Below, in pieces: positions 38,890-53,098 of a stretch of DNA of 64,000 nucleotides (the first letter of the stretch is position 1; every line of letters begins with the position of its first letter). Made by a program: the position numbers and the translations under genes. Under the pieces are notes generated by a model. That model was not told the DNA's origin and searched no databases. It was given only the letters and a program-made list of their open reading frames with translations. Source of the stretch: Rhodococcus sp. 14-1411-2a. Its GTDB lineage: Bacteria; Actinomycetota; Actinomycetes; Mycobacteriales; Mycobacteriaceae. Location: positions 338,815 to 402,814 of the forward strand of contig NZ_NPGA01000007.1 in the NCBI RefSeq assembly GCF_002259485.1, in the 5' to 3' direction.

Positions 38890-39748
<859 letters not shown>

Positions 39749-48550: not shown

Positions 48551-49180
48551 GTGACGGTCATGTCGCTCGCCATGCAGGGCTCGTTGTTCGGTGACGCCGA
48601 CGGTGGCGTCGGGTCGCTCGAGTCCGTCACCCGTCGCGAACTGACACTCGGGGCGTGGGTGGACGTTCGACCGGGCTGGTTGTCCGATACCCACCTGTTC
48701 GATTCACTGGTGGACTCCGTCGATTGGCGGGCCGAGCGCAGGCAGATGTACGACCGCGTGGTCGATGTCCCGCGCCTGGTTCGGTTCTACGCCGAGCGCG
48801 AGCGGTGGCCCGACGCCGCACTCTACGACGCACGCGATGCCCTCGACGAGCACTACCGCGCCGAACTCGGAGAATCGTTCACCACCGCCGGACTGTGCTA
48901 CTACCGCGACGGATCCGACAGCGTCGCCTGGCACGGGGACAACATCGGTCGCAGCGCTACCGAGGACACCATGGTTGCGATCGTATCCCTCGGTGCCTCA
49001 CGGCAACTCATGCTCCGACCGCGCGGCGGTGGAACGTCGTTGAAGTTCACGCTCGGTCACGGCGACCTGGTGGTGATGGGTGGCTCGTGTCAACGAACCT
49101 GGGAACATGCCGTCCCCAAGTCCACCCGCGCGACCGGCCCACGCATCAGCGTGCAGTTCCGACCGCGCGGGGTCCGCTAG
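48551..49180 (+). CDS. AlkB-type 2-oxoglutarate/Fe(II) dioxygenase
   Basis: A 209-residue DNA/RNA dealkylase. The iron-binding triad is His128-x-Asp130 in WHGDN and His186 in WEHAVPK; the 2-oxoglutarate arginines are in RISVQFR (198, 204). AlkB enzymes remove methyl or etheno groups from bases. Start GTG at 48551 or ATG at 48560. Its stop TAG (49178-49180) shares the palindrome CTAG with the stop of the convergent DAHP synthase. Confidence 0.93.
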   Translation: MTVMSLAMQGSLFGDADGGVGSLESVTRRELTLGAWVDVRPGWLSDTHLFDSLVDSVDWRAERRQMYDRVVDVPRLVRFYAERERWPDAALYDARDALDEHYRAELGESFTTAGLCYYRDGSDSVAWHGDNIGRSATEDTMVAIVSLGASRQLMLRPRGGGTSLKFTLGHGDLVVMGGSCQRTWEHAVPKSTRATGPRISVQFRPRGVR

Positions 49181-50259
49181 CGCGAGGCCCGGCGCTTCTC
49201 CACCGCGGCCGCAAGTGTGTCCAATTGCGTTGCCGTGGTGGCCCAGTCGAGGCACGCGTCGGTGATCGACTGCCCGTACAGCAGATCGTCACGGTGGCCC
49301 AGCTCGAGATCCTGACGCCCCGCGACCAGGAAGCTCTCGAGCATCAGACCGACGATGCCGTGTTCGCCTGCCGCGACCCGTGCTGCCACGTCGGTGACCA
49401 CGTCGACCTGCTTGTTGTGGTCCTTGCGGCTGTTGCCGTGGCTGGCGTCGATGACGACTCGCTCCGGTAGACCCGACTTACGCAGGCGTGCAACGGTATC
49501 GGCGACCGATTCGGCATCGTAGTTCGGCCCGTCGACGCCGCCGCGCAGAATGACGTGACAGTCCGGGTTTCCTACGGTGCGGATCAGAGCCGCCTGGCCG
49601 TCGAGGTCGGTGCCGGGGAAGACGTGGCTCGCGGCGGCAGCACGGGTGCCGTCGACCGCGACCTGGATGTCGCCCTCGGTGGAGTTCTTGATCCCCACCG
49701 GCATCGACAACGCACTGCACAGCTGGCGATGCACCTGACTGGCCGCAGTCCGCGCACCGATGGCGCCGTAGCTGACCAGGTCTGCGATGTACTGCGGGGT
49801 GATCGGGTCGAGGAACTCGCACCCGACCGGCAGACCGAGCGCGGAAATATCGAGCAGCAGTTGACGTCCCACGCGCAGGCCGGCATTGATGTCGAAGCTG
49901 CCGTCGAGGTGCGGATCGTTGATCAATCCCTTCCACCCGAGCGTCGTCCTCGGCTTCTCGAAGTAGACCCGCATGACGATGTGCAGTCGATCGCCCAGTT
50001 CGGACGCCTTGGCCGCGAGGCGTCGGGCGTAGTCGAGGGCAGCATCGGTGTCGTGCACCGAGCACGGGCCGACGACGACGATCAGTCGATCGTCACGGCC
50101 GTCCAGCACGTCGACCACGCCGGCGCGGCCGCTTCTGACGGTGGCAGAGATGGCGTCGTCCACTGCATGGTCGCGGCGAAGCACCGACGGAGCAACCAGC
50201 GGACTGATGCTGATGGTCCGCTGATCATCGAGAGGTGGGGTGTCGAGAGAGAGTGTCAT
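49177..50259 (-). CDS. aroG: 3-Deoxy-7-phosphoheptulonate (DAHP) synthase, class I
   Basis: A 360-residue class I enzyme (AroF/G/H type) condensing PEP with erythrose 4-phosphate, first step of the shikimate pathway. Motifs: IVVVGPCSVHD, MRVYFEKPRTTLGWKG, GIKNSTEGD, VILRGG, VIDASHGNS and GIVGLMLESFL. The ATG at 50259 has GGAACG/AGGAACG-like sequence before it. Upstream lie a leader peptide gene with Tyr-Phe-Trp-Phe codons and a four-segment RNA, which makes translational attenuation by aromatic amino acids likely. Convergent with alkB; their stops share CTAG. Confidence 0.95.
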   Translation of the reverse strand: MTLSLDTPPLDDQRTISISPLVAPSVLRRDHAVDDAISATVRSGRAGVVDVLDGRDDRLIVVVGPCSVHDTDAALDYARRLAAKASELGDRLHIVMRVYFEKPRTTLGWKGLINDPHLDGSFDINAGLRVGRQLLLDISALGLPVGCEFLDPITPQYIADLVSYGAIGARTAASQVHRQLCSALSMPVGIKNSTEGDIQVAVDGTRAAAASHVFPGTDLDGQAALIRTVGNPDCHVILRGGVDGPNYDAESVADTVARLRKSGLPERVVIDASHGNSRKDHNKQVDVVTDVAARVAAGEHGIVGLMLESFLVAGRQDLELGHRDDLLYGQSITDACLDWATTATQLDTLAAAVEKRRASR

Positions 50260-50278
50260 GACGGGTCGTTCCTGTTCC

Positions 50279-50387
50279 CAGGCCGGCTCCTCATGCTCCA
50301 CACGCACTTCGAGCCGGTCTGTATCCGGCTCGTGGGGTGGAGGGTCAGCGCATGGCGTCGCTGGCTGACCCACCCGGGGCCGGCCTG
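50279..50387 (-). promoter_or_regulatory. Four-segment attenuator RNA upstream of aroG
   Basis: On the minus strand four complementary segments follow the YFWF codons: 1 (CAGGCCGGCCCC, 50387-50376), 2 (GAGCCGG, 50331-50325), 3 (CCGGCTC, 50317-50311), 4 (GAGCCGG, 50289-50283). Segment 3 pairs perfectly with 2 or 4; segment 1 pairs with 4 in 11 of 12 bases and with 2 in 6 of 7. Segment 4 ends just before the aroG ribosome-binding region and no U-run follows, so control would be of translation. Confidence 0.7.
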
Positions 50388-50413
50388 CTAAACCAGAAAT
50401 ACGTGCGCTGCAT
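50345..50413 (-). CDS. Aromatic leader peptide (22 residues)
   Basis: A short frame MQRTYFWFSRPAPGG ... SDAMR ending in TGA, 85 bp before the aroG ATG. Codons 5-8 are Tyr-Phe-Trp-Phe, the three end products of the pathway aroG opens. The ATG follows TACGGT-GCTTTTC, a possible -10 element at distance for a leaderless transcript. A shortage of charged Tyr, Phe or Trp tRNA would stall the ribosome on segment 1 of the downstream RNA. Confidence 0.75.
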   Translation of the reverse strand: MQRTYFWFSRPAPGGSASDAMR

Positions 50414-50504
50414 GAAAAGCACCGTAGCAGATTCGCCGTCGATGCATCTATGCTCGTCCCTGCAGTCGGTTCGCCAGGTGTCCATGAGGAGCCCCGAAGT
50501 TCAC

Positions 50505-50697
50505 CACGGCGTCGAAGCGATGCGCGGCAGTTCCGGCGCATCGTGAGAGGGAACCCGGTGAGAATCCGGGACTGTCCCGCAGCGGTATGCAGGAACGACC
50601 GCCGTCACCACAAGCACTGAAGAAGCCTCTTCGGGAAGCGACGGCCAGTAGGAGTGGGCTTCTCGTCCACGCGCCCGCGAGTCCGAATACCTGCCGT
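50505..50697 (+). ncRNA. Cobalamin riboswitch upstream of metE
   Basis: The classic order is present: GAGGGAACCCGGTGAGAATC, CGGGACTGTCCCGCAGCGGT, AAGCGACGGCCAGTAGGAGTG and the B12-box end GCGAGTCCGAATACCTGCC. It lies on the metE strand, 146 bp before the start. B12-bound RNA would turn off the B12-independent methionine synthase. Confidence 0.95.
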
Positions 50698-50701
50698 CTG
50701 T

Positions 50702-50722
50702 GCTGCGCACGCCGTGCGCAGC
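50702..50722 (+). promoter_or_regulatory. Hairpin at the 3' edge of the B12 riboswitch
   Basis: GCTGCGCAC (50702-50710) and GTGCGCAGC (50714-50722) form a perfect 9-bp stem around GCC, immediately after the aptamer. It may be the expression platform, although no U-run follows. The remaining 120 bp to metE hold no gene. Confidence 0.5.
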
Positions 50723-50842: not shown

Positions 50843-53098
50843 GTGAGTATCGAATTCACTGCCACCGTGCTCGGCTCGGCCCGTATCGGACCGAACCGAG
50901 AACTGAAGAAAGCCGTCGAAAACTACTGGGCCGGAGGGCTCGACGCCGTCGGACTCGAAGCCGTCGCGCGGACATTGCGCGAGAACACCTGGCGAGAACT
51001 CGCTGCCGCCGGAGTCGATTCCGTTCCGGTGAACACCTTTTCGTACTACGACCACATGCTCGACACAGCTGTGCTTCTCGGAGCGCTGCCACCGCGAGTG
51101 ACGGGACTGGGCACCGAGCTGGACCGGTACTTCGCGGCAGCCCGCGGCACCGACACCGTCGCACCGCTCGAGATGACCAAGTGGTTCGACACCAACTACC
51201 ACTATCTCGTCCCGGAGATCTCCCCCGACACCACCTTCTCCCTGCACTCGGAGAAGGTAGTGGACGATGTGAAGGAGGCTGTGGCACTCGGCATTTCGGC
51301 CCGACCGGTGATCATCGGACCGATCACGTTCCTGCTCCTGTCCAAGGCAGTCGGCGGCAGCGCCCCTCTGCTGGACCGCCTCGACGAGATCCTGCCGCTG
51401 TATGCGGAGCTGCTGACGACACTCGCCGATGCCGGAGCCGAGTGGGTCCAGATCGACGAACCTGCGCTCGTGGCCGATCGCACCCAGAGCGAGATCGAGT
51501 CCGCGAAGAAGGCCTACGACTTTCTGAGCGCAGTGTCGACCAGGCCTGCCATAGTGCTGGCGTCGTACTTCGGTGACCTCGGCGCTGCGCTGCCCGTGCT
51601 CGCATCGACCGGAGTCGAGGGATTCTCGATCGATCTGACGGTGCCGGGCACCGTCGAGCAGATTGCCGTGGTACCTGCGCTGGCGGGCAAGCACATAGTC
51701 GCGGGCATCGTGGACGGGCGCAACATCTGGCGGACGGATCTCGACAAGGCACTGGCAACGTTGGCGAGCCTGTTGGGTAGTGCAGGCACGCTTGCGGTGT
51801 CGAGTTCGTGCTCGCTGCTGCATGTTCCGTACACCCTCGACGCAGAGACCGACATCGTCGATCCGCTCCGATCCTGGTTGGCGTTCGGTGCCGAGAAAGT
51901 CGCCGAGGTGACACTCCTCGCCCGAGCGCTGCGAGACGGGACCGAATCGGTGTCGTCCGAGCTCGAGCAGGCCCGCAATGCGCTCGAGACCCGTCGTACC
52001 GACCCGCGCCTGCACGACTCGGAAATCCGAGCACGCATGGAGGCGGGTGTCTCCGTCGACCGCACCCCGGCCGAGGAACGTCGTCGAGCACAGGCCGAGC
52101 GGCTGGACCTGCCGTCGTTGCCGACGACCACCATCGGCTCGTATCCACAGACGACGCAGATACGACGTGCTCGGGCAGCGCTGCGAACGGGCGCGATCGA
52201 CGATGCCGAGTACGCATCCCGGATGCGGTCCGAGATCGCCGATGTCGTTGCACTGCAGGAGAAGATCGGACTCGACGTGCTGGTGCACGGCGAGCCGGAG
52301 CGAAACGACATGGTGCAGTATTTCGCCGAACGACTCAGCGGCTTCGCAGCGACGTCGAACGGCTGGGTCCAGTCGTACGGAACTCGATGCGTTCGGCCGC
52401 CGATTCTGTACGGCGACGTCTCGCGTCCCGAGCCCATGACCGTGCAGTGGTCGGAGTTTGCCCAGTCCCTCACCGACAAGCCGGTCAAGGGAATGCTGAC
52501 CGGCCCGGTGACAATTCTGGCGTGGTCGTTCGTCCGAGACGACCGACCGTTGGAAGAGTCCGCAGCCCAGATCGCACTGGCGATTCGGGACGAGACGATC
52601 GACCTGGAGGCAGCGGGCATACACATCGTCCAGGTGGACGAACCTGCCCTTCGCGAACTGCTACCGCTGCGTGCGAAAGATACAGCGGCGTACCTGGAAT
52701 GGGCAGTGCGGTCGTTCAAGATCTCGACTTCCGGCGTCGCCGACGACACGCAGATTCACACGCATCTGTGCTACTCGGAGTTCGGTGAGATCATCGACGC
52801 GATCGTCGCCCTGGACGCGGACGTGACGTCGATCGAGGCGGCCCGCTCACACATGGAGGTACTCGACGATCTGAACTCCGTCGGCTTCGACCTCGGCGTC
52901 GGCCCCGGCGTGTACGACATCCACTCACCGCGGGTGCCCAGTTGCGACGAGATCACCGAGTCACTGCAGGCGGCACTGAAAGCGGTTCCCGCCGAACGAC
53001 TCTGGGTCAATCCCGACTGCGGGCTCAAGACCCGCGGGCCGGCCGAGGTGGAACGGTCACTGACGAACATGGTGCGGGCGGCGGCCGCGCTGCGCTGA
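50843..53098 (+). CDS. metE: Cobalamin-independent methionine synthase
   Basis: A 751-residue two-barrel enzyme transferring the methyl of methyltetrahydrofolate-polyglutamate to homocysteine. N-terminal barrel: [20 protein letters not shown]-terminal barrel: [13 protein letters not shown], zinc ligands His and Cys in [12 protein letters not shown] and Cys in [13 protein letters not shown] after GGAGACC. Its cobalamin riboswitch implies that a B12-dependent MetH exists elsewhere in the genome. Confidence 0.97.

Follow-up and report, generated by a model that had tools for sequence, protein, structure and literature searches.

The class I DAHP synthase gene aroG of this Rhodococcus genome is preceded by a 22-codon reading frame that carries Tyr-Phe-Trp-Phe (YFWF), and folding models together with covariation argue that this leader is probably a translational attenuator sensing shortage of any of the three aromatic amino acids. 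The leader frame and the alternating RNA segments that accompany it are real, beyond chance. The entry enzyme of a branched pathway must answer three end products, and here a single 70-nt frame would do so by ribosome position alone. In E. coli, the DAHP entry step answers its three end products through isozymes and repressor proteins. If the proposal is true, a control known from one industrial species is widespread, and in richer form, in Actinobacteria; the leader would then be a brake on aromatic flux that could be taken away in Rhodococcus and related bacteria, and it offers a clean test of how a single leader weighs three tRNAs.

The aroG leader and its spread

In the window (the whole 64,000-nt stretch of DNA that was analysed), the leader frame MQRTYFWFSRPAPGGSASDAMR and its stop occupy 50345..50413 on the minus strand, from an ATG at 50413-50411 to a TGA at 50347-50345, and encode M Q R T Y F W F S R P A P G G S A S D A M R. 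The sensor codons TAT TTC TGG TTT (Tyr5 Phe6 Trp7 Phe8) lie at 50390..50401. The gene that follows on the same strand, aroG (49177..50259, ATG at 50259, 360 aa), is separated from the leader stop by 85 nt and matches class I (type I) DAHP synthase (PF00793, 283.7 bits; TIGR00034, 477.5 bits), confirming the first-pass annotation, which had placed a 22-codon leader with Tyr, Phe and Trp codons ahead of this enzyme. A short frame rich in end-product codons just upstream of a pathway gene is, by its sequence, what is expected of a leader-peptide attenuator.

Seven nt 5' of the leader ATG stands a -10 box, TACGGT (50421..50426, minus strand), recognised by its sequence and by the conserved spacing of such boxes. 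All 106 YFWF-type leaders have TANNNT 5-8 nt 5' of the start (7 nt in 86), as against 3 of 1246 other ATG or GTG codons in the same regions; the script that picked the starts weighted the -10 box, a weighting that alone cannot yield this gap. Given that the ATG follows the box at 7 nt, the leader transcript is probably leaderless, with a predicted start at 50413 and not downstream of it. The set of 106 derives from 122 YFWF-like leaders, 113 of them distinct, after setting aside two proteobacterial sequences and three without a start found by the script, which left 108, and then two without a segment match.

Upstream, metE (50843-53098, plus strand) is divergent from aroG and shares one intergenic region with it. 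The cobalamin riboswitch ahead of metE (50499-50712, plus strand, 80.6 bits) neither covers nor reads the leader, as it lies on the opposite strand and upstream of metE, and a scan of 50230-50440 with Rfam release 15 returned nothing at gathering score, its two matches (E 0.25 and 0.82) being far under the cut-off. Convergent with aroG is a 2OG-Fe(II) oxygenase gene (48551-49180, plus strand, PF13532), presumably AlkB-like, and elsewhere in the window lies a c-di-AMP riboswitch of the ydaO type (38927-39128, plus strand, 56.5 bits). The same genome has a class II DAHP synthase at another locus, where a scan of the first 1600 nt (L259) for frames of 8-45 codons found none that had a -10 box or three aromatic residues in six.

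Searches for class I aroG gave matches in 40 of the 61 relatives, in 170 of 201 genomes of the family and in 80 of 394 genomes at class level, with two of the 80 matching only at E near 1e-3. Taking as a leader a frame in which a stretch of six codons holds at least three aromatic residues and whose -10 box is spaced as for a leaderless transcript, we found one at 184 of 211 actinobacterial class I DAHP synthase loci, a count in which some species appear twice and for which the leader-choosing script favoured the -10 box and a PAPGG-like tail. By this definition 27 loci have no leader frame, although two of them (L125 and L129) do have a leader with Tyr-Phe only. The 27 include all 16 class I aroG loci read in family f31 (L134, L136, L138, L240-L247, L249, L250, L252, L254, L255), where no aromatic leader was detectable; none was detectable either at L198, the second aroG copy of genome G511. 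Phe, Trp and Tyr all occur within the first 15 residues of 171 of the 184 leaders, with Phe and Tyr only in 12 and Trp and Tyr only in one. Thus, a leader for three aromatic amino acids, which had been called unusual, is so when set against the single-amino-acid leaders of textbooks, but it is common among the actinobacterial loci read.

The conservation in relatives that the first-pass annotation asked to be checked is also found: the frame and its aromatic codons are kept in all 30 same-genus loci fetched first (the window's own included). Of seven further same-genus genomes with an AroG about 60% identical, six were read (L219, L227, L233-L236; G036 is the seventh) and all six have a YFWF leader, as if the enzyme had changed faster than its leader. 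Across genera the motifs read YFWF, YWRF, RWYWRF, RYPYF, RWYAYF and others, so aromatic decoding is kept while the order of codons changes. The DNA motif TAYTTYTGGTTYN7CGGCCC is present as a single copy in 43 of the 121 family genomes searched, and all 43 copies lie upstream of aroG (42 by comparison, by eye, with listed aroG positions, the 43rd seen directly); its reversed form, used as a control, gave one match in the same genome search. A YWRF-type motif turned up in 15 of the 394 class genomes and, as judged by comparing positions, precedes aroG in every one of the 15. A chance reading frame is therefore ruled out by the YFWF frame in 30 of 30 same-genus loci, the spacing of the box and the uniqueness of the motif.

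RNA segments and the predicted closing of the ribosome site

Five segments, numbered in nt from the leader ATG and all on the minus strand, make up the putative switch. Segment 1, CAGGCCGGCCCCGGGTGGG (50369..50387, nt 27-45), lies inside the leader just 3' of the sensor codons; in a narrower definition it is CCGGCCCCGGGTGGG (nt 31-45, 50383-50369). Segment 2, CCACCCCACGAGCCGG (50325..50340, nt 74-89), can pair with 1 or 3; segment 3 is CCGGCTC (50311..50317, nt 97-103); and segment 4, GAGCCGGCCTG (50279..50289, nt 125-135), can pair with 1, with 3 or with the ribosome site. Segment 5 (50257..50273, nt 141-157) runs from the aroG Shine-Dalgarno sequence AGGAA (50273-50269) to the start codon and would be shut by segment 4 when the switch is OFF. 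The alternating complementarity claimed earlier is present, GAGCCGG being repeated identically in segments 2 (nt 83-89, 50331-50325) and 4 (nt 125-131, 50289-50283), with its complement in segment 3.

Covariation in the YFWF type points to the pairing of segment 4 with the ribosome site and start codon, with -14.74 kcal/mol for native partners and -12.49 (sd 0.57) for partners swapped between clusters (p = 0.00015, 14 clusters). A coarse clustering placed 103 of 106 sequences in one cluster and left 4 representatives, with p = 0.12, and finer clusters were then adopted; p was at most 0.0074 in 16 settings with 8 to 31 clusters and 0.04-0.20 in four with 5 or 6. One locus, L036, was omitted from the 14-cluster test, the script having misplaced its start codon, and was restored in half of the robustness runs. 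Compensatory changes can be read directly, as GUGGGU with ACCCAC beside the ATG in Nocardia (L056), GCGGG with CCCGC in Amycolatopsis (L038) and CAUGA with UCAUG in this genome.

The helices among segments 1 to 4 are strong in the YFWF type, with native against letter-shuffled energies of -21.8 and -13.9 kcal/mol for 1:2, -17.7 and -7.3 for 2:3, -13.9 and -9.0 for 3:4, and -16.5 and -10.2 for 1:4. Covariation of these helices within the type is not significant (p = 0.09, 0.07, 0.17 and 0.93 for 1:2, 2:3, 3:4 and 1:4), given that segments 1-3 hardly vary there; 1:4 is conserved all the same. Segment 1 also has a predicted pairing with the spacer 3' of segment 3 (mean z -3.6, beating 95% of shuffles in 84% of the 106 leaders; z -4.2 in this genome). 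Among leaders of other types, where 40 loci passed the filters of the test, none of the 20,000 permutations did as well as the native 1:2 or 2:3 pairing with 15 clusters, and with 8 clusters the values were 0 and p = 0.00035. The compensatory stem changes that had been anticipated are hence found for 1:2 and 2:3 in the other leader types, but 1:2, 2:3 and 3:4 do not reach significance in the YFWF type itself.

In the other types, the 2:4 and 3:5 windows also scored (p 0.0001-0.04), and the window-based test gave no significant result for 4:5 (p = 0.63 and 0.89). A score for 3:4 in these types (p about 0.001) was discounted because its two windows overlap in many loci. Between their segments 2 and 3, YWRF- and RYPYF-type leaders (L073, L093, L115, L118, L207, L210 and similar) have a long hairpin, GGCAGNGAC..GTCNCTGCC or a variant of it, with a short U-tail in some and often followed by TTCGTC; it lies outside the switch helices and could be a terminator, a spacer or something else. 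Given the null 4:5 result, the 2:4 and 3:5 scores and this extra hairpin, we argue for translational control only in the YFWF type. In silico, the helices are mutually exclusive and start at the regulatory codons, as befits an attenuator, and in the YFWF type alone the ribosome site is closed in the OFF structure, as befits a translational one.

Transcriptional attenuation by Rho or by a terminator devoid of a U-run, in which translation of the leader would set whether RNA polymerase reaches aroG, is an unlikely alternative to this closing of the ribosome site, though the best of those we weighed. It draws on the description of C. glutamicum aroR/aroF as transcriptionally controlled, in the relevant part of a review (PMC11802643), on the other-type relatives whose strong hairpin between segments 2 and 3 ends in a short U-tail, and on the intrinsic terminators of 20 of 22 proteobacterial loci discussed below. 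However, no intrinsic terminator (a GC-rich hairpin with a U-run) lies between leader and aroG in the window, where the sole terminator-like site in 50200-50520 is at 50422-50405, over the leader promoter and start; in the YFWF-type sequences inspected, the loop of the 2:3 hairpin is short and no U-run follows the hairpin directly; and the covarying partner of segment 4 is the ribosome-site region. The first-pass annotation had already taken the missing U-run to favour translational over transcriptional attenuation, and our results support it as regards an intrinsic terminator.

Ribosome position and the proposed switch

To follow the switch, a ribosome was placed on each leader codon in turn and the cost of opening the aroG ribosome site was computed by equilibrium folding. 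Over the 106 leaders, with the ribosome placed by its A site, this cost was 4.8 kcal/mol at Tyr5, 5.3 at Phe6, 7.5 at Trp7 and 8.2 at Phe8; it was 8.0-8.6 as the ribosome moved across segment 1, 7.9 once it stood at the stop, and 6.8 without a ribosome; for the window's own leader it was 2.6, 4.0, 8.0 and 8.9 at the four aromatic codons and 6.8 at the stop. The site opened by at least 1 kcal/mol at Tyr5 in 72-75% of the 106 leaders. In a set of 108 leaders, opening it was costlier with the ribosome at the stop than on the first aromatic codon in 94 cases, but the same comparison with the last aromatic codon held in only 59. When the ribosome's 3' edge was moved from +15 to +12, Trp7 opened the site too (5.3) and Phe8 closed it (7.5). 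The last Phe codon is no simple fit, since the model has a stall at Phe8 closing the site.

A ribosome at Tyr5 or Phe6 ends short of segment 1 or at its edge. With the ribosome at Tyr5, the computed pairing was 0.47 for 1:4, only 0.16 for 1:2 and 0.12 for 3:4, with hairpin 2:3 standing in nearly all states, and when segment 1 was masked the 4:5 pairing rose from 0.21 to about 0.57. Late in the leader (11th codon after Phe8) segment 1 becomes free again (1:4 0.54, cost 6.8); with the ribosome at the stop, most of it is taken up by a local hairpin with the adjoining 3' bases (0.63). Because of this late freeing and of the 6.8 kcal/mol without a ribosome, the OFF state is not uniform.

The difference between a passing and a stalled ribosome was further compared with controls at 20 hand-picked loci, comprising 13 of the 14 cluster representatives (L039 left out) and L015, L018, L026, L112, L144, L161 and L173. 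It was +3.15 kcal/mol for native sequences, +0.22 with the spacer shuffled and +0.45 with synonymous codons after YFWF. The native difference lay above the control mean in 17 or 18 of the 20 loci, with 13-18% of single random controls per locus reaching the native value; the direction was reversed in L038 and L219, and in L056 too for the passing ribosome. As both controls abolish most of the difference, spacer and codon choice both matter, in the direction of feedback control.

Stalling, the direction of the switch and the response to Trp are predictions of this model. When charged tRNA is ample, the ribosome would run beyond the aromatic codons and over segment 1, and once it stands at the stop, segment 1 would be mostly locked in the local hairpin with the bases after it. 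With segment 1 unavailable, hairpin 2:3 would stand and segment 4 would fold onto the aroG Shine-Dalgarno sequence and start codon (OFF). When Tyr-, Phe- or Trp-tRNA is short, the ribosome would wait on the YFWF codons, just short of segment 1, and the free segment 1 would capture segment 4, this 1:4 pairing being the main route in equilibrium folding. Alternatively, 1 could take 2 and leave 3 to capture 4, a route that is minor at equilibrium and possible during transcription. By either route the capture of segment 4 would open the aroG ribosome site (ON). A related arrangement, with 1:4 and an extension in which the aromatic codons pair with the Shine-Dalgarno sequence as the OFF state, was given up as the leading interpretation: with a ribosome occupying the leader, 1:4 could still form but the extension could not, and 4:5 covaries.

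The first-pass annotation wired the same segments in the opposite direction, a stalled ribosome masking segment 1 so that 2:3 forms and 4 stays free (ON), and fast reading giving 1:2 and 3:4 (OFF). The segments are present as it described them, 1:2 and 2:3 covary in other leader types, and their order copies textbook trp attenuation. Nevertheless, we regard this wiring as distinctly improbable, since the covariation of segment 4 with the ribosome site and start implies that 4, once free, would close the site; masking segment 1 lifts the opening cost from 4.8 to about 8 kcal/mol; and a ribosome at Tyr5 or Phe6 does not reach beyond the edge of the segment that it would have to mask. The direction proposed there is not supported, and a free segment 4 would be the OFF state.

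The switch favoured here, in which segment 1 acts as RNA, would also make the conserved tail -PAPGG- a by-product of that role and not a working peptide. Indeed, codon choice in the leader is shown, at the level of sequence, to be constrained as RNA and not as peptide. In the 106 YFWF-type leaders, TGG is found in all 106, TAT accounts for 100 of 101 Tyr codons at that position, the last Phe is TTT in 100, and the Gly-Gly codons are GGT in 97 and GGG in 100, as compared with a usage of 13% TAT, 8% TTT, 17% GGT and 14% GGG in five genes of the window. Pro is CCG in 101 and Ala is GCC in 106, both the commonest codons anyway. Codon +5 (after PA) changes its residue between nearly fixed neighbours, being CCG (Pro) in 65, CTG (Leu) in 17 and CGG (Arg) in 14 of the 106, with 8 further variants listed, and it varies mostly at the middle base. 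In addition, a clade with the N-terminus VSAT in place of MQRA keeps the bases CAGCG in a different frame. CAGCGC at leader nt 4-9 (50410-50405) is complementary to GCGCTG at the stop codon (nt 63-68, 50351-50346), and this pairing may close the leader when it is free of ribosomes; retention of CAGCG in the VSAT clade despite the other frame makes such a further closing pairing possible. An arrest peptide, in which the nascent chain YFWFS[RK]PAPGG would itself bind an aromatic amino acid or some other ligand and so stall the ribosome, could account for a peptide conserved, tail included, over many genera, but it is highly unlikely given that the tail is held at the nucleotide level, that Pro, Leu and Arg replace one another at codon +5, that the VSAT clade retains CAGCG out of frame and that other types order their aromatics differently (YWRF, RYPYF, RWYAYF).

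Comparison with known systems

Among open-licence papers on three-aromatic or DAHP synthase leaders, we found nothing closer than C. glutamicum aroR, and one paper on premature terminators does not mention DAHP synthase. As described in parts of the literature, C. glutamicum has a Phe-Tyr-Phe leader upstream of aroF, with a detected attenuator transcript (PMC4046766); a review section has this control answer Phe and not Tyr (PMC11802643), while a passage in one engineering paper terms it translational (PMC7356990). This aroR leader (Neshat et al. 2014) is the nearest relative of the window's, an aromatic leader in the same position ahead of a DAHP synthase gene. It differs, in its description rather than by comparison of RNA, in that it is transcriptional and reads Phe-Tyr-Phe with no Trp named, whereas the window's leader reads Tyr, Phe and Trp and points to the ribosome site. 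In the sections concerned, a 2005 survey of Actinobacteria reports no conserved RNA structures upstream of phenylalanine/tyrosine operons and leaves Rhodococcus unmentioned (PMC1262725), and a study of Streptomyces lividans describes eight leaders, none for an aromatic amino acid except Trp, and reports leaderless transcripts for leaders in that species (PMC8079986), as predicted for the YFWF leaders. The polycysteine short ORFs ahead of mycobacterial cys operons (Canestrari et al. 2020, as cited in part of PMC13236596) are leaderless, as predicted here, and are said to act by translation attenuation, as proposed here; they sense one amino acid, Cys, unlike the three of the window's leader, and the likeness is one of description and not of RNA architecture (PMC13236596).

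Like the window's leader, the E. coli trpL and pheL attenuators have competing segments; unlike it, they respond to one amino acid each, use a transcription terminator with a U-run and follow a different segment logic. They, too, carry codons for the end product of their pathway, according to the review section cited above (PMC11802643). Beyond Actinobacteria, 27 of 47 loci had some candidate leader, and 22 proteobacterial loci were hand-picked from the 47. A U-run terminator is present in 20 of these 22, its 5' arm pairing with the segment that follows the aromatic codons at a mean of -18.8 kcal/mol against -11.2 for shuffled sequences; the cross-species p was only 0.046, and L063, L095 and L097 lay near the shuffled level. 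Burkholderia-, Xanthomonas-type and related aroG leaders (L058, L070, L072, L075, L089, L102, L105) have an aromatic codon run followed by PLAEEG, PLADREG or similar, and the bases coding this stretch pair with the 5' arm of the U-run terminator. Since a segment after the codons that pairs with the terminator 5' arm would be useful only if free during the stall, these proteobacterial leaders suggest the same free-segment direction.

A broader reading, to which we give slightly less than an even chance, is that one old family of three-amino-acid attenuators accompanies class I DAHP synthase across Actinobacteria, with the pathway entry run as an OR-gate and the segment after the codons as an activator that must stay free, unlike in trp-type attenuation. 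If so, shortage of any one end product would stall the ribosome in one short codon block. A parallel in logic is the uORF of M. tuberculosis ilvB1, where, as described in part of the same source, a ribosome at the stop blocks the anti-structure and a stall on several regulatory codons (LVVI) lets it form (PMC13236596). That uORF serves branched-chain amino acids and an intrinsic terminator, whereas the window's leader would serve aromatics and a ribosome site (PMC13236596). By this analogy, the direction proposed here agrees with that of the M. tuberculosis ilvB1 attenuator.
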